DNA of 47,741 nt from Armatimonadota bacterium (GTDB lineage Bacteria > Sysuimicrobiota > Sysuimicrobiia > Sysuimicrobiales > Sysuimicrobiaceae), in NCBI GenBank assembly GCA_025060455.1, contig JANXBY010000064.1, forward strand, positions 1 through 47,741. The letters run 5' to 3'. The position numbers and the translations under genes were made by a program. Below the pieces are notes generated by a model. That model was given only the letters and a program-made list of their open reading frames with translations, ran no database searches and was not told where the DNA came from. Within the stretch, counting starts at the first letter, position 1, and each line of letters opens with the position of its first letter. Below are positions 39,912 through 47,741 of this stretch, piece after piece.

Positions 39912-39931
39912 ATCCGGCTCCCGCCGGATGG
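39912..39931 (+). terminator. Hairpin terminator of the leucine-degradation operon
   Basis: Perfect 8-bp stem CATCCGGC/GCCGGATG with loop TCCC, starting four bases after the liuE stop. No T run follows, so termination strength is uncertain. Confidence 0.5.
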
Positions 39932-40005
39932 ACGTGGCCCGAGCCCGTCCGTCAGTTTACAGTCAGGAAAATCTGAGAAGTCGGATTCCTCCAGTCTGGT
40001 TGCCA

Positions 40006-40152
40006 ATGAGGCGCGGAGTGGAGCGTCGCAACGGCTCCCGGTGGCGGGTGGCAGACAAGGTCTGGTTCTGGCTGGTGGCTAGTAACCTCTTCTTCTTGGT
40101 CGTGTACCTGGTCTGGGGTGCGTGGGACGTGCTGCGCATCCCGGCCCGTTAG
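40006..40152 (+). CDS. Small single-helix membrane protein, likely oxidase subunit IIa-like
   Basis: Forty-eight residues: a basic N-terminus (MRRGVERRNGSRWRVADK) and one membrane helix (VWFWLVASNLFFLVVYLVWG). It lies directly before subunit II and subunit I genes. In Thermus ba3 oxidase a one-helix subunit IIa of similar size is encoded in the same position, so the assignment rests on size, topology and context, not on sequence motifs. No strong ribosome site is seen before the ATG. Confidence 0.6.
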   Translation: MRRGVERRNGSRWRVADKVWFWLVASNLFFLVVYLVWGAWDVLRIPAR

Positions 40153-40252: not shown

Positions 40253-40777
40253 GTGTCGCCGGGCGCGTGGTGGGAGGAACCAGTCCACTCCCTCGAGCGG
40301 GTGTGGGTGGGGCTCGCGTTTCTCATCGCCGTGGTGTTCTTTTCCGCCAGCATGCTGGTCTGGCACCGATTCGGCTCCCAGAACGTGACCGGCCGCGCCT
40401 ACCGGGTCAGCCCTCAGGCCTACCAGGCGGAGGTGGAACGCTTCGTGCAGCGGTACAAGGTGGGAGAGGAAGGGGGGCAGCCCGTGGTGGCCCCGCCTCC
40501 CGGCAGCGACGTCTACGTGCTGGCCCAGCGCTTCCGGTTCTACCCCATACTGCTGCTCAAGGCCGGAGAGCGGTATATGCTGCACGTGGCGAGCATCGAC
40601 TACCTGCACGGGTTCAGCATCACCCAGCCCCACGTGTGGAACTTGCAGCTGTACCCGGGCTACGAATGGGTGGTGCCCGTCGTGCCGCGCCATCCCGGCA
40701 CCTACCACATGGCGTGCAACGACTTCTGCGGGGTCGGCCACGAGATGATGCTCGGGAAGATCGTCGTGGAGAGGTGA
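40253..40777 (+). CDS. Heme-copper oxidase subunit II with CuA site
   Basis: Membrane-anchored electron-entry subunit. The 174 residues have one N-terminal helix (about 17-37), a linker, and a cupredoxin domain with all CuA ligands: His119, then C155-x3-C159-x3-H163-x2-M166 (CNDFCGVGHEMM). A single anchor helix and short length resemble ba3-type subunit II. GTG at 40253 after a strong AGGAGGTAAGG. The CuA site means that it takes electrons from a soluble periplasmic donor; no cytochrome c gene is seen, but a blue copper protein is encoded 6 kb downstream. Confidence 0.92.
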   Translation: MSPGAWWEEPVHSLERVWVGLAFLIAVVFFSASMLVWHRFGSQNVTGRAYRVSPQAYQAEVERFVQRYKVGEEGGQPVVAPPPGSDVYVLAQRFRFYPILLLKAGERYMLHVASIDYLHGFSITQPHVWNLQLYPGYEWVVPVVPRHPGTYHMACNDFCGVGHEMMLGKIVVER

Positions 40778-40780
40778 GCC

Positions 40781-42490
40781 ATGGCCGGGTTCGCGGAGAC
40801 GGAGTCCAGGGTCTGCCCGGTCACGGGGTTCCGGGTGCACCAGGCCGCAGAAGACCTCGTGAAGGCCAACGCGGTAGCCGCGGTGGTGGCCCTCCTGCTG
40901 GGCGGGGTGGCCGCGGTGGTGGTGCTGTTCACCCGGTGGATGGGCGCCTTCCCGCCGGAGGCCTTCTACCAGTACCTGGCTCTGCACGCGTGGAACATGC
41001 TCATCTTCTGGATTATCTTCTTTGAGATCGCCCTCCTCCACTTCGCGGGCAGCATCATGCTGAACACCCGGCCTGCAAGTCCCGCCGCGGGCTGGATGGC
41101 CTTCGGCCTCATGGCGCTGGGCGCCCTGATGGTGAACCGGGCGGTGCTCACCAACCCTCTGAACCACCTCTCCTTCCAGCCGTACCCCCCGCTGCGCGGG
41201 ACCCCGGACTTCTATCTGGGGACTATCCTGTTCGCCGTGGGGGCGCTGGTCGGGGTAGGGCTGTTCTTCGCCACCGTGTACAAGGCGTACCGCGAGGGCA
41301 ACCACCAGGGCCCTTTGCCCCTGGTGGTGTTCGGCGCCTTCGTGGCCGCGGTGCTGGCGGTGGGCACCCTGCTAGTGGGCGCGCTGGCCTTCGTACCTGC
41401 CTTGCTGTGGTCCGCGGGGCTGCTGGTGCACCTGGATCCCTTCCTCTGGAAGCTGGTGTACTGGGGTTTTGCCCATCCGTCCCAGCAAATCAACCTGGCT
41501 GCCACGGTAGCGGTGTGGTACCTGCTGGCCCAGCTCACCGTGGGCGGCTACACGCCGAGCGAGAAGGTCTCCCGTGCCGCCTTCGTCCTGTACCTGGTCG
41601 CCATCAACCTGGGGAGCGCCCACCACCTGCAGACGGAACCCAGCGGGGCACTGTCGGTGGGGTGGAAGTGGATCAACACGGGCTATCTGATGCACCTGGC
41701 GGTGCTCGGGAGCATGATCCACGCGTTCGCAGTACCGGGCAGCGTAGAGGTGGGCCAACGGCTGCGGGGCTACACCCGAGGGCGGTTTGAGTGGCTGGTG
41801 CGGGGCCCGTGGCACAACCCGGCCTTCACGAGCCTCGTCCTTTCGGTGGCTCTGTTTGGCTTCCTCGGGGGCATCACCGGGGTGATCGCGGGCACCGAGC
41901 AGCTCAACCTGAAGTGGCACAACACCACCGGTATCATGGGTCACTTCCACGGAACGGTGGTGGCGGGTACCACCCTGGCGTTCATGGGGATCACGTGGTA
42001 CGTGCTGCCCCTCATCTTTCGTCGGCGGGTGGTGGGCGAGCGTTGGGCCCGGTGGCAGCCGTGGCTATTCGGGGTCGGCGTCGGCCTTCTGGTTCTAGCC
42101 TACACGCAGCTGGGCGTGCGGTACGGGCTTCCACGGAAGCAGCCGGACGTCTTCCGGTTCCGGGGGTTGCCCCTGGCCTTCCCGTGGCCCGACGAAGTCT
42201 ACCGACTCCTGGCGGTGGCCGGGGTCGGCGGGCTGTTGGCCCTGCTGGGCGGCGCGGTGTTCGTGGTCCTCGTGGTGGCCACGATCCTGTTCGGAAAGCG
42301 GCTCACGGACGAAGAATTGCGCCGGCAGTACGCGCTGCCGTCTTTCGGCGGCAACCCGGGGCACGGGGTGACGGAAACTCCCGCGGTCCCCGGTACCTTC
42401 GCCCTGTGTCTGCTGTTCGCGGCTTTCTTCGTCCTCACGTATCTAGGCAACTACTGGAACCTCTCCCGCTCTTGGCCCATCGGGGGCTAA
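40781..42490 (+). CDS. Heme-copper oxidoreductase subunit I without active-site tyrosine
   Basis: The 569 residues have 12 or more helices and all six metal-binding His: H69 (low-spin heme), H232 (CuB, WGFAHPSQQ), H281-H282 (CuB, GSAHHLQTEP), H388 and H390 (high- and low-spin heme, MGHFHGT). The cross-linked Tyr of A/B-type oxidases (HPxxY) is replaced by Gln236, and the helix VII Tyr of C-type oxidases (HHLHY) by Thr285. It is therefore either a nitric oxide reductase-like member of the superfamily or a divergent oxygen reductase. It starts three bases after subunit II. Confidence 0.9.
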   Translation: MAGFAETESRVCPVTGFRVHQAAEDLVKANAVAAVVALLLGGVAAVVVLFTRWMGAFPPEAFYQYLALHAWNMLIFWIIFFEIALLHFAGSIMLNTRPASPAAGWMAFGLMALGALMVNRAVLTNPLNHLSFQPYPPLRGTPDFYLGTILFAVGALVGVGLFFATVYKAYREGNHQGPLPLVVFGAFVAAVLAVGTLLVGALAFVPALLWSAGLLVHLDPFLWKLVYWGFAHPSQQINLAATVAVWYLLAQLTVGGYTPSEKVSRAAFVLYLVAINLGSAHHLQTEPSGALSVGWKWINTGYLMHLAVLGSMIHAFAVPGSVEVGQRLRGYTRGRFEWLVRGPWHNPAFTSLVLSVALFGFLGGITGVIAGTEQLNLKWHNTTGIMGHFHGTVVAGTTLAFMGITWYVLPLIFRRRVVGERWARWQPWLFGVGVGLLVLAYTQLGVRYGLPRKQPDVFRFRGLPLAFPWPDEVYRLLAVAGVGGLLALLGGAVFVVLVVATILFGKRLTDEELRRQYALPSFGGNPGHGVTETPAVPGTFALCLLFAAFFVLTYLGNYWNLSRSWPIGG

Positions 42491-42494
42491 GCAG

Positions 42495-43934
42495 TTGTTC
42501 GCGAGGTCAGGGGCGCGCGCGGCTTCGGAAGAATGGCTAGCCCTCGCTGCGGCCGCTGCAGCCGTCGCGGGGGCGCTGGCGCTGCTGGTCACCGCGGCGC
42601 GGTTGCCCCTCCCCGGCGGGCTGGTCTCTACCACCGCCTTCTACAGAGCCCTGGTGGCACACGTCACCTTTTCCCTTGTGGTGTGGCTCCTCAGCGGCAG
42701 CGTGGCGCTGGCCCTGCACCGCGGCCACTGCCAGGCGCCGCCGCAGGCCCTTGGGGCGGCCTACGTCGGAGCCGCCCTCATCTTCACAGGCGCCCTCCTG
42801 CCCGGCCGGCCGGTGGTGGTGGACTACCTGCCGTACGTGGACTCCCCCAGCTACCTGGCCGGCTACGGCCTGTTCGCCGCCGGGGCGGCCTTCGCCCTGG
42901 GATGGGCGGCCTGGAAGGGGTCAGGTCATCCCATAGGGCCTCGGTGCCTTGCTGTCGCCTACCTGGCGACCCTGGTCGCGGTCGCCTGCGGGCTCCTCCG
43001 TGTAGGCGGCACCTCTCCCGCCGCGGCGGTGTGGGGAGCCGGTCACGCCCTCCAGTTTGTGTACGTGACCGCCCTCGCCCTCGCGTGGTATGAGCTGGCG
43101 TGGCCTTCTTCGGCCGTCACGCAGCCAGAACCCCCTCTGTCGTGCCTAGCGTTCCGACTCGGTGCCGCGCTGGCGTGGATCCCTGCCCTCCTATACTTCC
43201 TTCCCGACGCCGCACAGCTGCCCCGTTGGGCGGCCGCCAACGCGGCCATGGGATTCGCCCTGAGCATCCCCACCGCCATCCACCTGGTGCTGCTGGCGCC
43301 CCGGCTCACCCACGTGTCGGGCGTGGAGGGCGTTGCACTCCGGTGGTCGGTGGCCTCGTATGCCCTCGGTGGCGTGCTGGCCCCCGTGGAAGCTCCCAAC
43401 ACGCTACAGGTCACAGCCCACTACCACGCCATGCTGGTGGGAGGGGTGACCATGGCTTTCATGGGCGCCGCCCACCGGATGCTCCGCAGTTTCGGCCGAC
43501 CGGTGGACGAACCCTCCGGCCGGCTGCAGCTGCACCTGTTCGGAGCCGGGGTCGTGTTGACGGTGGCGGCCCTGCTGGTGGCCGCCGGCCACGGGTTGCC
43601 GCGCAAAGCGTACCTCTCCGGCGCGCACCTGTGGCCCGTGCCGGTGCTACTTCTGGGCGGGGCAGCCTTGCTCGCCAGCGTGGGCGGTGCCTGGTTTCTC
43701 CTGGGCATTTGGCGGCCGCTGCGGGTCGCGGGCTCCTACCCGGTTCGCCGCGCCCGCCCGGCCCCAGCAGCTCAGACGGAGCCCGCCAGCGGCCCCGGCC
43801 GGCTGCTGGCAACACGCCCCGCCCTCCGTAACGCCCGCCGGAGGCAGGCAGTTGACGCGCCTGATCCCTGGGCCGCCCACCGAGCCTCCACCAGCACCAC
43901 CACTTGCGTGTCCGGCCGTCCCCGGCTAGACTAA
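42495..43934 (+). CDS. Second heme-copper oxidase-like subunit lacking the CuB His-His pair
   Basis: The 479 residues, from a TTG at 42495, form about 11-12 membrane helices. They align with the preceding subunit I through H56 (helix II), H184 in WGAGHALQ (helix VI) and AHYHAMLVGGVTMAFMG (helix X, H309/H311). Where subunit I has the CuB pair HH in helix VII, this protein has A231-L232 (WIPALLYFLPD), so a normal CuB site cannot form. The last 60 residues are Ala/Pro/Arg-rich and of unclear status. It may be a structural or heme-only partner of the oxidase. Confidence 0.8.
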   Translation: MFARSGARAASEEWLALAAAAAAVAGALALLVTAARLPLPGGLVSTTAFYRALVAHVTFSLVVWLLSGSVALALHRGHCQAPPQALGAAYVGAALIFTGALLPGRPVVVDYLPYVDSPSYLAGYGLFAAGAAFALGWAAWKGSGHPIGPRCLAVAYLATLVAVACGLLRVGGTSPAAAVWGAGHALQFVYVTALALAWYELAWPSSAVTQPEPPLSCLAFRLGAALAWIPALLYFLPDAAQLPRWAAANAAMGFALSIPTAIHLVLLAPRLTHVSGVEGVALRWSVASYALGGVLAPVEAPNTLQVTAHYHAMLVGGVTMAFMGAAHRMLRSFGRPVDEPSGRLQLHLFGAGVVLTVAALLVAAGHGLPRKAYLSGAHLWPVPVLLLGGAALLASVGGAWFLLGIWRPLRVAGSYPVRRARPAPAAQTEPASGPGRLLATRPALRNARRRQAVDAPDPWAAHRASTSTTTCVSGRPRLD

Positions 43935-44092: not shown

Positions 44093-44386
44093 ATGGATGC
44101 GCGTGCCGTCGCGCACACGACAGCTGTACAGGTGGAAGACGAACGGCCAACCCAGGTGGCGGTGTTGGACTGCCGCGGCCTGCTGTGCCCCCTACCCCTG
44201 CTGAAGACCCAGCAGGCGGTGGCCGACCTGCAGGACGGGCAGGTCCTCGAGGTGTGGACCACCGACCCCCAGTCTGAGGGGGATCTGCGCGCGTGGGCGC
44301 AGGCAGCCGGCCACCAGGTGACGCCCCTGCCGCCCCAGGACGGCGTGTACCGGTTCCACCTGCGCAAAGGACCTTCGGGGAGGTGA
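44093..44386 (+). CDS. tusA: TusA-family sulfur carrier protein
   Basis: Cytoplasmic persulfide carrier of 97 residues. The diagnostic CPxP motif is C32-P33-L34-P35 in LDCRGLLCPLPLLKTQ, where C32 carries the sulfane sulfur; a second Cys (C27) lies five residues earlier. A 20-residue N-terminal extension precedes the domain. ATG at 44093 after GAGGTG. First of five co-oriented sulfur/copper genes. Confidence 0.92.
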   Translation: MDARAVAHTTAVQVEDERPTQVAVLDCRGLLCPLPLLKTQQAVADLQDGQVLEVWTTDPQSEGDLRAWAQAAGHQVTPLPPQDGVYRFHLRKGPSGR

Positions 44387-44392
44387 CGCGCC

Positions 44393-45175
44393 GTGCACCG
44401 GTGGGCGGGCGTGTTGCTGGCCCTTCTGATGAACGGCTTCCTGGTGGGCCAGATGTGGGTGGTGCGGGGCGCCGCCCTGTCCCCCGGGCCCGCAGAGGCG
44501 GTGGTGGTGCGAGAGGACGAGGTCCACCGGCGGCCGGTGAAGGCCGGTGAGCGGACGGTGCTGGAGGTGTCGACCACAGGGTTGCTGGAGGTGGTGGTGT
44601 ACGAGCGCACAGGCGACGCTCGGGAGCTCGAAGAGTTCCGGGCTGGGAGGGTGCCGCGGACCGCGAAGGTCTTCTCGCAGGTCCGGGAGCTGAGCTACCC
44701 GCTTTCCAGCGTGACTGACACCGAGTTCTACGTGCGGGTGCGGCACCTGCGGCCGGGCGAGACCCGCCTCCGGTACGTGCCGGGGCTGGTGGACGAGGCG
44801 ATGGCCCGCCTGCGCAAGGGGGAGAACCTGGTGCGCAACCGCGGTGTGGTGGTGGTCGAGGGCGGGCGGCTGACCATGCCGGTCTACCAGCTGGTGCCGG
44901 GGACGGTGGTGCGGGTGGAGGTGCAGTCCGGCAGAGGCGTGGTAGGGCTGTTGAAGACGCGGGACTACCTGGACGTGCGGGACGGCCGGGCGACGGTGGC
45001 AGGCCGCTGCACGCCGCAGGCGTGTGTGGAGGCCTCCTCCGGCCGGGCGGTGCTGGAGGTGGCGGTGGGGGACTACGACGACCGCTACCTGGTGGCAGAA
45101 GGGCAAGGGTTGGTGTTCACCTACCGGGTGGTGGCCACCCCAGAGGTGCTGAACCACATCTCCAGCTGCACGTGA
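44393..45175 (+). CDS. Exported beta-rich protein of unknown function
   Basis: Not recognised. The 260 residues begin with a hydrophobic segment (about 4-28) that is a signal peptide or anchor. The rest looks like two similar beta-sandwich units: about 45-135 (AGERTVLEVSTTGLLEVVVY) and 150-255 (PGTVVRVEVQSGRGVVGL). The only cysteines in the mature part are GRCTPQACVE and a Cys next to the C-terminus (SSCT). GTG start after GGGGAGGTG. It lies between tusA and the sulfide dehydrogenase, so a periplasmic sulfur or copper role is inferred from position only. Confidence 0.75.
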   Translation: MHRWAGVLLALLMNGFLVGQMWVVRGAALSPGPAEAVVVREDEVHRRPVKAGERTVLEVSTTGLLEVVVYERTGDARELEEFRAGRVPRTAKVFSQVRELSYPLSSVTDTEFYVRVRHLRPGETRLRYVPGLVDEAMARLRKGENLVRNRGVVVVEGGRLTMPVYQLVPGTVVRVEVQSGRGVVGLLKTRDYLDVRDGRATVAGRCTPQACVEASSGRAVLEVAVGDYDDRYLVAEGQGLVFTYRVVATPEVLNHISSCT

Positions 45176-45188
45176 AAGGAGGGTTTGC

Positions 45189-46454
45189 ATGGACCGGTTG
45201 ACCCGGCGGCAGGTGCTGAAGGTGCTGGGCGGGGCCACAGTGGCCGCCGCCACGGGAGGGTTCACAGGTCAGCTGTTGGGCTGGGCCACCGCGCAGGAGC
45301 CCAGCCGGCCGCTGCTTCCCCGTCCGGGCCGGCGGGTGGTGATCGTGGGGGCGGGAATCAGCGGGGCCATGTGCGCCCGCACCCTGCGCAAGCTGGCCCC
45401 GGACGTGGAGGTGGTGGTGCTGGAGCGCAACCCCACCTACGTGTCGGGGCCGTCCCACGTGGACTACGTGGTGGGCCTGGAGGATGCCAGGAAGGTGACG
45501 GTGACCTTCGACGCCCTAGTGCGGGACGGGGTGAGGGTGATCCGGTCTCCGGCCACCGGCCTGCGGCTGCAGGATAACCGGGTGCTGACCCCGCAGGGGT
45601 TTGTGGAGTACAGTGTGCTGGTGCTGGCCACGGGGTTGGTGCCGGCGGAGCACGAGGTGCGCAACCTGCTGGAGAACCGCCGGCTCAGCCCGCACGCGTG
45701 GACGTGGGCGGGGACGGTGGAGCTGCGGCGGGCGGTGGAGGCGTTTTCGGGGGGCACTTTCGTCCTTACCGTGCCCCCGCCCCCGTACAAGTGCCCTCCC
45801 GGTCCCTACGAGGTGGCGTGCCTGGTCCAGGAGTACTGGCGGGCCAAAGGGGTTCGGGCGGAGGTGGTGGTGCTGGACAGCAACGACCGACCGCAGCCGC
45901 CTCTGTTGGCGGACCTGTGGCGGCGGGTCCTGCAGGAGCGCGGCATCACCTACAAGCCCAGCTTCAAGGTGGTGGAGCTGGACCCCACAAGCCGCGTGCT
46001 GATCTCCGACCGGGGCGAGCGGCAGCGGTTTGACCTGGCCAGCGTGATCCCGCCCCAGCGGGCGCCCCTGTTCATCGAGGAAGCAGGATTGGGCGGTCCC
46101 TTCGTGCCCATCGACCCTGCCACGTGGCGGAGCCGGGCCCAAGAGAACCTGTACGCCTTGGGCGACGTAGCCGCCTCTCCGTACACCAAGAGCGCCTTCA
46201 CCGCTTTCCTGCAGGGACGCAACGCCGCCTACTTCATCGCCCGCGCCTTGGGTCGGGACCGTGGCGAGCCCGACCCGGTGTTCAACCAGTGCTGGCCGTT
46301 CGTCTCCAGTAAGGAGGCACTGTTCGTGGAGGTGGCTTGGGACAAGGAAGGCCGGCCGATCCCGGCCCGCAATCGGACCGGCGCACCCAGCGCCCAGCAC
46401 GTGAAGGACCGCAAGCAGTGGGAGTACGGGCTGTTGCGCGCAGTGTACGGATGA
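45189..46454 (+). CDS. FCSD-type sulfide dehydrogenase flavoprotein, Tat-exported
   Basis: Flavoprotein subunit of flavocytochrome c sulfide dehydrogenase type. The 421 residues have a Tat signal (TRRQVLK, RR at 6-7), an FAD loop VIVGAGISGA (51-60) and an FCSD-like C-terminal region. Active-site cysteines are C202 in YKCPPGPYE and C368 in FNQCWPF, corresponding to the FCSD redox pair. The Cys that binds FAD covalently in Allochromatium FCSD is absent (TYVSGPSHVDY), so FAD is probably non-covalent. No cytochrome c subunit is adjacent. ATG after AAAGGAGGG. Confidence 0.88.
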   Translation: MDRLTRRQVLKVLGGATVAAATGGFTGQLLGWATAQEPSRPLLPRPGRRVVIVGAGISGAMCARTLRKLAPDVEVVVLERNPTYVSGPSHVDYVVGLEDARKVTVTFDALVRDGVRVIRSPATGLRLQDNRVLTPQGFVEYSVLVLATGLVPAEHEVRNLLENRRLSPHAWTWAGTVELRRAVEAFSGGTFVLTVPPPPYKCPPGPYEVACLVQEYWRAKGVRAEVVVLDSNDRPQPPLLADLWRRVLQERGITYKPSFKVVELDPTSRVLISDRGERQRFDLASVIPPQRAPLFIEEAGLGGPFVPIDPATWRSRAQENLYALGDVAASPYTKSAFTAFLQGRNAAYFIARALGRDRGEPDPVFNQCWPFVSSKEALFVEVAWDKEGRPIPARNRTGAPSAQHVKDRKQWEYGLLRAVYG

Positions 46455-46882
46455 GACCAAGTTCCGCGCTCCCCATTGCCGTGGCGGTGGTCGTCGTCGC
46501 GGCCTCGGCCGTCGCGGCCCTGTCCTGGAGGCGCGCTCCCCCGTCTCCCCGGGAGGCCCACGGTGCCTTCTACGTCACCGCGGACCCCGGCATGCGGTTC
46601 GGGGGTCGGGTGCCGGGACCGCCCCTACGGGCCCGGGTTGGCCAGCCGGTCGAGGTGGTGTTGGAAAACCGGGATACCGTGGCGCATGATCTGTGGGTGG
46701 TGGCCGCAGACGAGCGTGCCCCCTACCTTGAGCCTGCGTTTCCAGGAGCCCGCACCCGGCTGCTGGGACCTGGGGAGCGGGAGGAGATCCAGTTCACCCC
46801 CACCCGGCCGGGCCGGTACCGGTACGTGTGCACCGTACCCGGCCACGACGGGGCTATGTTCGGGGAGTTCGTGGTGGAGTGA
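46451..46882 (+). CDS. Membrane-anchored or exported blue copper protein (cupredoxin)
   Basis: A 143-residue protein with an N-terminal hydrophobic helix (about 7-25) and a plastocyanin-like domain. All four type-1 copper ligands are visible: His79 (TVAHDLWV), Cys127, His132 and Met136 (CTVPGHDGAM). It is therefore a likely one-electron carrier in the periplasm. The ATG overlaps the FCSD stop (ATGA), so it is made together with the sulfide dehydrogenase and may be its electron acceptor. Confidence 0.9.
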   Translation: MRPSSALPIAVAVVVVAASAVAALSWRRAPPSPREAHGAFYVTADPGMRFGGRVPGPPLRARVGQPVEVVLENRDTVAHDLWVVAADERAPYLEPAFPGARTRLLGPGEREEIQFTPTRPGRYRYVCTVPGHDGAMFGEFVVE

Positions 46883-47741
46883 GCCAGCCCGCCCTGGCAC
46901 TGCTGGTGCTGGCCACCTCCCTGGCCACCGCCGCGGTGGCGTGGCAGCTGGAGCTGCGGTCTGCCGCGGTGCTGCTCCTCCTGGGCTTGGGCTACGGGTT
47001 TGCCTTCCAGCGCAGCCGACTTTGCTTTGCCTCGGCCTTCTACGGCAACCGGGCGCTGCTGAGGGGCATCCTCCTGGGGCTTGCGGTGGCCTCGGTGGGC
47101 TCTGCGCTGGTCGTCCACCTCGGGTGGAACCGGCCTCCCCGGCTGCCCTTCGGGCTGCACACCTTACTGGGGTCGTTTTTGTTCGGGTTTGCCATGCCGT
47201 TTGCGGGAGGGTGCATGACGGGCACCCTGTACCGCGTGGGCTCCGGGCAGCCCAAGTCTCTGGCCGCCTTCCTGGGAATCCTGGTCGGCAACGGGCTGGG
47301 TGCGGCGTACGCGTGGCCAGTCACCGAGCGCCTGATGAGCTGGGCCAGCTCGTTTTCCCTTGCGGAGGTGGTGGGGCTGTGGCCTGCCACCCTGCTGAAT
47401 TTGGCCGTCCTGGGCGTCCTGTACACGCGGTTGAGGCCCGCACACCCCGAACCCGCCACCCGCCTGTCCCTGCTGGCTCCCTGGCCCGCGTGGCTGGGAG
47501 GCCTGGTGGTGGCAGTGCTGTTCACCGCGCAGTTCGCCTACCACTCTGCCCTGGGCGTCCAGCTGCCGCTGGCACGGTTCAGCCTGTGGGCGACGCATGC
47601 CGCTGGAGCGGACACCGGAGGTCTGGCGTGGATCCGGTTCTGGGGTGATCGGCTGCCTGCCCTGGACCCCGGGTTCCACCTGGACGTGGGTCTCGTCACC
47701 GGAAGCCTGGTGGCGGCCCTGCTGGCCGGGGAGTTTGTGGG
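46879..47741 (+). CDS. YeeE/YedE family sulfur transporter (partial, 3' end outside window)
   Basis: Polytopic membrane protein of the family that includes the thiosulfate importer TsuA. A GTG at 46879 overlaps the cupredoxin stop; 287 codons are visible. Family marks are GFAFQRSRLCFASAFYG with Cys49 and AGGCMTGTLYRVGSGQ with Cys112; the conserved cysteines line the thiosulfate path in TsuA. It may import thiosulfate or reduced sulfur to TusA. The C-terminus is cut by the window end. Confidence 0.88.
   Translation, partial: MSQPALALLVLATSLATAAVAWQLELRSAAVLLLLGLGYGFAFQRSRLCFASAFYGNRALLRGILLGLAVASVGSALVVHLGWNRPPRLPFGLHTLLGSFLFGFAMPFAGGCMTGTLYRVGSGQPKSLAAFLGILVGNGLGAAYAWPVTERLMSWASSFSLAEVVGLWPATLLNLAVLGVLYTRLRPAHPEPATRLSLLAPWPAWLGGLVVAVLFTAQFAYHSALGVQLPLARFSLWATHAAGADTGGLAWIRFWGDRLPALDPGFHLDVGLVTGSLVAALLAGEFV

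Follow-up and report, generated by a model that had tools for sequence, protein, structure and literature searches.

The window, that is, the whole stretch of DNA that was analysed, is a single contig of 47741 bp (C69) from an assembly of 2.26 Mb that is 95% complete. Toward its 3' end it carries an operon with a CuA subunit (40253-43934), which lies 5' of tusA, and a set of sulfur-related genes in which a flavoprotein of the flavocytochrome c sulfide dehydrogenase (FCSD) type is followed by a cupredoxin. The contig stops at 47741 within yeeE. The features are as follows:

39928-40152, + strand: small membrane protein of 74 aa, first gene of the eNOR-type module (homologue directly 5' of subunit II in G001, G003, G006, G007 and G009)
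40253-40777, + strand: subunit II with a complete CuA site, H119, C155, C159, H163 and M166 (TIGR02866, E 2.5e-9; ligand motif kept in 6 genomes)
40781-42490, + strand: heme-copper subunit I, eNOR-type, with Gln236 (PF00115, E 9e-52; alignment to ba3 structures)
42495-43934, + strand: second, divergent COX1-like subunit (PF00115, E 8e-8; alignment)
44093-44386, + strand: TusA-like sulfurtransferase with CPLP motif (PF01206, E 6e-23; kept in 5 genomes)
44393-45175, + strand: 260-aa protein of no known family (no Pfam match)
45189-46454, + strand: FCSD-type flavoprotein with TAT signal, Cys202 and Cys368 (PF21706, E 1e-19)
45447-45449, + strand: codon of Gly87, at the covalent-FAD Cys position of canonical FCSD (alignment)
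46451-46882, + strand: membrane-anchored type-1 cupredoxin with H79, C127, H132 and M136 (PF00127, E 1e-6)
46879-47741, + strand: YeeE/YedE (TsuA-like) transporter, cut by the contig end (PF04143, E 2e-28)

An earlier note on this DNA had named TusA, an FCSD flavoprotein, a complete type-1 cupredoxin, a YeeE/YedE transporter and a CuA operon, and domain matches and ligands bear out the entire set. The gene overlap that it described is real, since the flavoprotein stop and the cupredoxin start share 4 bp in the sequence ATGA, and a junction of the same kind links the cupredoxin stop (46880-46882) to the start of yeeE at 46879. Its statement that no CxxCH protein is encoded from 40.0 kb to the window end was also correct, as the motif is absent from all six frames between 36 kb and 47741. 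On the far side of the reductase genes, the segment 31564-39908 encodes acyl-CoA dehydrogenase, ETF, a biotin-dependent carboxylase, enoyl-CoA hydratase and HMG-CoA lyase, a set that resembles leucine degradation and part of which also borders the operon in relatives. The 260-aa protein, which is kept between tusA and the flavoprotein gene, has an N-terminal membrane helix, two beta-rich repeats and invariant Cys206, Cys211 and Cys259, one of which is the penultimate residue. Its AF2 model (pLDDT 86) found no meaningful fold match in the PDB (TM <0.3), and a kinship to SoxYZ was rejected after profile comparison gave no match.

The window flavoprotein has the FCSD-type fold and central domain. 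Among solved structures its best relatives are flavin subunits of FCSD, with 123-134 bits for 3vrd, 1fcd and 5n1t (134 for 3vrd); SQR scores 55 bits. In alignment, the redox cysteine pair of FCSD falls on Cys202 and Cys368. The best NCBIfam match is type III or selenoprotein-type SQR at 132 bits, far under the 525-bit cut-off, yet trees place the protein with FCSD: a clade formed by the window protein and those of G001, G004, G006 and G016 is sister to cytochrome-linked FCSD, and the window protein stands apart from its own genome's two SQR-like paralogues, with no SQR grouping recovered. A selenocysteine reading, raised by the selenoprotein SQR match and by an in-frame TGA in some relatives, was rejected: the TGA of G016 lies 5' of the conserved region and the G014 gene is frameshifted. 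The window clade retains the two redox cysteines. At the covalent-FAD position, alignment reveals Gly in five of five window-clade members and Cys in ten of ten canonical members, and loss of this attachment residue could mean an altered reaction. PF09242 (FCSD-flav_bind) gives no match to the window protein at E 0.1, yet the C-terminus aligns; the same search across the organism's own genome gave no match anywhere, controls included, and so carries no information. An AF2 model of the flavoprotein had a pLDDT of 40 and was set aside.

Two loci from another phylum, L118 and L119, join the window branch with moderate support (85/84). PF09242 matches the L118 protein at 6e-4, and L119 retains the covalent-FAD Cys. 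At both loci (L118 376-3052 and L119 5330-8448), a SoxYZ fusion and a YeeE-like transporter lie near the FCSD-like gene. In L119 the gene beside that of the flavoprotein encodes a Rieske-like protein, and L118 has a similar, unrecognised neighbour; neither locus has a heme gene adjacent to the FCSD-like gene, and the monoheme cytochrome of L119 lies ~3 kb 5'. These loci possibly represent a second non-heme FCSD arrangement.

FCSD is described as a flavoprotein-cytochrome pair, and the canonical enzymes need their cytochrome subunit. How regular is this pairing at the level of gene order? A c-type cytochrome is fused, adjacent or no more than two genes away in 35 of 35 canonical (cytochrome-type) FCSD loci, comprising 3 plasmid loci, 5 from a profile search of 386 genomes and 27 from a second phylum, which agrees with the earlier note's premise that FCSD is normally paired with a cytochrome. 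At all 27 loci of the second phylum a diheme cytochrome of ~200 aa is fused to the FCSD gene or directly 3' of it, and the cupredoxin of the window therefore occupies the usual cytochrome slot. The fused case among the 27 is L107, where flavoprotein and diheme cytochrome form a single 655-aa open frame. A TusA-domain protein, YeeE, FCSD and the diheme cytochrome stand side by side in L082, and the same set occurs in G126. Because L082 holds this sulfur gene set together with a diheme cytochrome, the reading of the cupredoxin as a cytochrome replacement becomes stronger.

The cupredoxin gene is immediately 3' of the FCSD-like gene in 4/4 loci, and the four type-1 ligands are complete and identical in 4/4 orthologues. 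Two genera, g1 and g2, differ in detail: the junction is an ATGA overlap in g1 and probably a CTGA start in g2, and sequence inspection shows an anchoring N-terminal hydrophobic segment in g1 and a lipobox-like motif in g2. G016 has an intact-looking flavoprotein orthologue with neither an adjacent cupredoxin nor an in-frame TAT leader. The nearest cupredoxin paralogues in the phylum form a tandem with a larger cupredoxin-like gene, and in two genomes flagellar genes are close by; this gene context gave no functional lead. The position and conservation of the cupredoxin suggest that the flavoprotein may rely on copper in place of heme to carry its electrons.

The phylum sample comprises 43 genomes, all in one order and spread over several families; Sysuimicrobiota (CSP1-3) consists of one class and one order (PMC11604079), and the 43-genome phylum would match it. 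The arrangement is conserved with a contiguous operon in G001 (= L016), G004 and G006, and for this reason it is not a product of chance. G003 is consistent with it, as one of its contigs breaks off within the 260-aa gene and another resumes within yeeE, such that the gap falls where the FCSD and cupredoxin genes are expected. The earlier note had named as refuting evidence a cytochrome c gene just past 47741 or one recurring in homologous loci, and the relatives supply neither. What follows yeeE in G001, G004 and G006 is a nitrite oxidoreductase (NXR) in the order nxrA, nxrB, nxrC and chaperone, and nxr genes follow yeeE in G003 too; no heme c motif protein was called in the operons of these four genomes. 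NxrA is TAT-type and 1165-1180 aa long in G001, G004 and G006, with the G001 protein scoring 940 bits against Kuenenia NXR-A, and NxrB has 379 aa. The NxrC-like subunit is of the heme-b type (105 bits against Kuenenia NXR-C for the G006 protein) and is followed by matches to the type II DMSO-reductase chaperone. TAT-type NxrA, NxrB and NxrC thus stand next to the sulfur module directly in G001, G004 and G006, and across the contig break in G003. The window's own MAG yielded no nxrA, which fits the contig break and is not proof of it; the NXR linkage is drawn from the relatives. In G005, of the same family, broken nxrA and nxrB remnants (L066 10773-13839, G005:C2) in a complete genome mark a recent loss of nitrite oxidoreductase, and this genome has no orthologue of the window flavoprotein.

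Within Sysuimicrobiota, the NxrA of Kaftiobacteriaceae and Humicultoraceae had previously been grouped with periplasmic NXR. Like the periplasmic NXR clusters of Kuenenia, Nitrospira and Nitrospina, the operon combines a TAT-type NxrA with NxrB, a heme-b NxrC, a chaperone and a nearby cupredoxin gene; those clusters differ in that they include cytochromes c together with a bd-like oxidase. Earlier work described cupredoxin-like proteins in NXR clusters and proposed that copper may take over from heme carriers there (PMC3578206). One hypothesis is that the cupredoxin belongs to the NXR and passes nitrite electrons from the heme b of NxrC to eNOR or another oxidase, with the flavoprotein acting as an independent sulfide scavenger. 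NXR is indeed in the operon of 4/4 relatives whose far end is assembled, and the Nitrospina, Nitrospira and Kuenenia clusters supply a precedent (PMC3578206). However, no cupredoxin was called beside four NXR loci in other families of the phylum (G014, G016, G020 and G038), and it is the flavoprotein gene with which the cupredoxin gene overlaps; nxr lies on the far side of YeeE. We regard exclusive service to the NXR as unlikely, and favor a cupredoxin that takes electrons from the flavoprotein and also serves the NXR.

Upstream, the earlier note had seen a CuA-type terminal reductase. The CuA site is complete, but subunit I would suggest NO rather than O2 as the substrate. The criterion for eNOR is a Gln at the site otherwise held by the cross-linked Tyr (PMC8756737), and Gln236 of the HPSQQ motif, which is kept in 6 genomes, aligns with the cross-linked Tyr of the ba3 oxidase HPIVY; all six His are present (H69, H232, H281, H282, H388 and H390). 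The enzyme thus carries the signature of eNOR, a predicted NO reductase. Like eNOR with its cupredoxin/CuA subunit II, it has the Gln, the six His and a CuA subunit II directly 5', a likeness drawn from the genes; unlike eNOR, it adds the divergent second COX1-like subunit and the small 5' membrane protein. The second subunit keeps some heme-ligand His but not the pair in helix VII. Both this subunit and the 74-aa protein are conserved in the eNOR modules of G003, G006 and G007, and the window copy of the subunit has a longer C-terminus unrelated to that of its relatives, possibly the result of a frameshift.

Does the cupredoxin deliver its electrons to this CuA site? A strict version of the earlier proposal holds that sulfide, flavin, cupredoxin and, in the neighbouring terminal reductase, the CuA site form one dedicated pathway. 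The modules adjoin in G000, G001, G003 and G006, and the CuA site is intact. However, the eNOR module is found without the flavoprotein in G007 and G009, which are of other genera (the G009 copy is cut by the contig end), and an opposite-strand oxidoreductase-like gene lies between the eNOR module and tusA in G004 and G006 (genus g2). In G004, moreover, deletions have removed subunit II and much of subunit I, a frameshift affects the second subunit and the remnant is joined to a truncated HMG-CoA lyase gene (L049 12005-14646, G004:C3), with tusA to nxr intact and no other intact eNOR copy found in that genome. This loss could be an artefact of assembly or genuine decay; in the latter case, the unit of flavoprotein, cupredoxin and NXR can do without the eNOR-type reductase. 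The eNOR is a separable module, and because it stands alone elsewhere, is split off in g2 and is damaged in G004, electron delivery to CuA is uncertain. The cupredoxin-to-CuA step is the weaker part of the earlier proposal, and a single dedicated pathway is, in our judgment, improbable.

A third hypothesis draws on cytochromes encoded in trans. At least five c-type cytochromes are encoded at two other loci of the genome. At one of them a diheme protein accompanies a bc-type complex, and a FixO-like protein accompanies a cbb3-like oxidase; at the other, two monoheme proteins belong to a copper-handling cluster. The organism is therefore not free of cytochrome c, and the flavoprotein electrons could go to such a protein, leaving the copper protein without a role as partner. 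The need of canonical FCSD for a cytochrome subunit favors this; however, none of these cytochromes is FccA-like and next to a flavoprotein gene, the slot holds a cupredoxin in 4/4 loci, and the nearest two outside relatives (L118 and L119) also have no adjacent cytochrome, which leaves this explanation quite unlikely. A chain without cytochrome c, as the earlier note put it, accordingly holds for the locus and not for the genome. TusA has roles in molybdenum cofactor biosynthesis. Very unlikely is a non-respiratory unit in which TusA, YeeE and the flavoprotein supply sulfur or handle persulfide (for instance to mature the molybdenum cofactor or to protect the NXR from sulfide) and the flavoprotein keeps thiols oxidised, for although TusA, with that role, and a TsuA-like transporter flank the flavoprotein and the covalent FAD link is lost, the TAT signal should put the flavoprotein in the periplasm and TusA is cytoplasmic, the cupredoxin is left unexplained, and G126 has the TusA-domain/YeeE/FCSD set with a diheme cytochrome.

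We hypothesize instead that the locus is the 5' part of an NXR operon with a sulfur-redox arm, in which the flavoprotein reduces a cupredoxin that also serves the NXR, and we consider the case for this whole explanation to be evenly balanced. The operon would read tusA, 260-aa protein, FCSD-like flavoprotein, cupredoxin, yeeE, nxrABC and chaperone, with most of its products predicted to be periplasmic or membrane-bound. The TAT-exported flavoprotein would most likely use its FAD and Cys202/Cys368 to oxidise sulfur in a reduced form, be it sulfide, persulfide or a related thiol, and would pass electrons to the anchored cupredoxin, which would replace the diheme cytochrome of canonical FCSD and probably also serve the NXR. 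From there, electrons would go on to an acceptor of high potential; where the eNOR-type reductase is intact, its CuA is a plausible candidate, and elsewhere another carrier would serve. YeeE and TusA would handle the transport and relay of sulfane sulfur. We infer the flavin-to-copper step from position, overlap, conservation and the lack of any other adjacent carrier, and the terminal acceptor is likewise a deduction; sulfide would be the substrate by analogy with the sister family. The sulfide-to-flavin-to-cupredoxin part of the earlier proposal is thus well motivated by slot and position, with the qualification that the operon runs into NXR and that the cupredoxin may serve it too or instead.

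Relative to known flavocytochrome c sulfide dehydrogenases (FccAB / SoxEF), the window protein shares the FAD fold, the redox Cys pair with a CPPGPYE motif, the periplasmic leader, the sister position in trees and, in G126, the company of TusA and YeeE. It differs in having no cytochrome subunit, a cupredoxin in the slot, Gly for the covalent-FAD Cys, no PF09242 match at E 0.1 and an NXR operon in place of a Sox/Fcc operon. In the literature searched, with subscription papers mostly outside the search, nothing relevant was found on FCSD with a copper partner, and no NXR cluster was found with TusA, an FCSD-like flavoprotein or eNOR; nor was a precedent found there for a cupredoxin that takes the cytochrome slot beside an FCSD-type flavoprotein, or for the place of such a pair in an NXR operon. 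A more far-reaching model, which we put forward tentatively and as somewhat doubtful, is that a branch of FCSD swapped cytochrome c for a blue copper protein (elsewhere perhaps a Rieske-like protein) and was, in this phylum, wired into an NXR operon, such that sulfide-type and nitrite oxidation would share a copper carrier leading to an NO-reducing CuA-type enzyme. If true, a conserved, copper-partnered branch of FCSD would mean that the electron partner of this family is exchangeable, and NXR operons would gain a testable sulfur input. Surveys that require fccA, or that call such flavoproteins SQR, would then miscount sulfide oxidation in uncultured bacteria.
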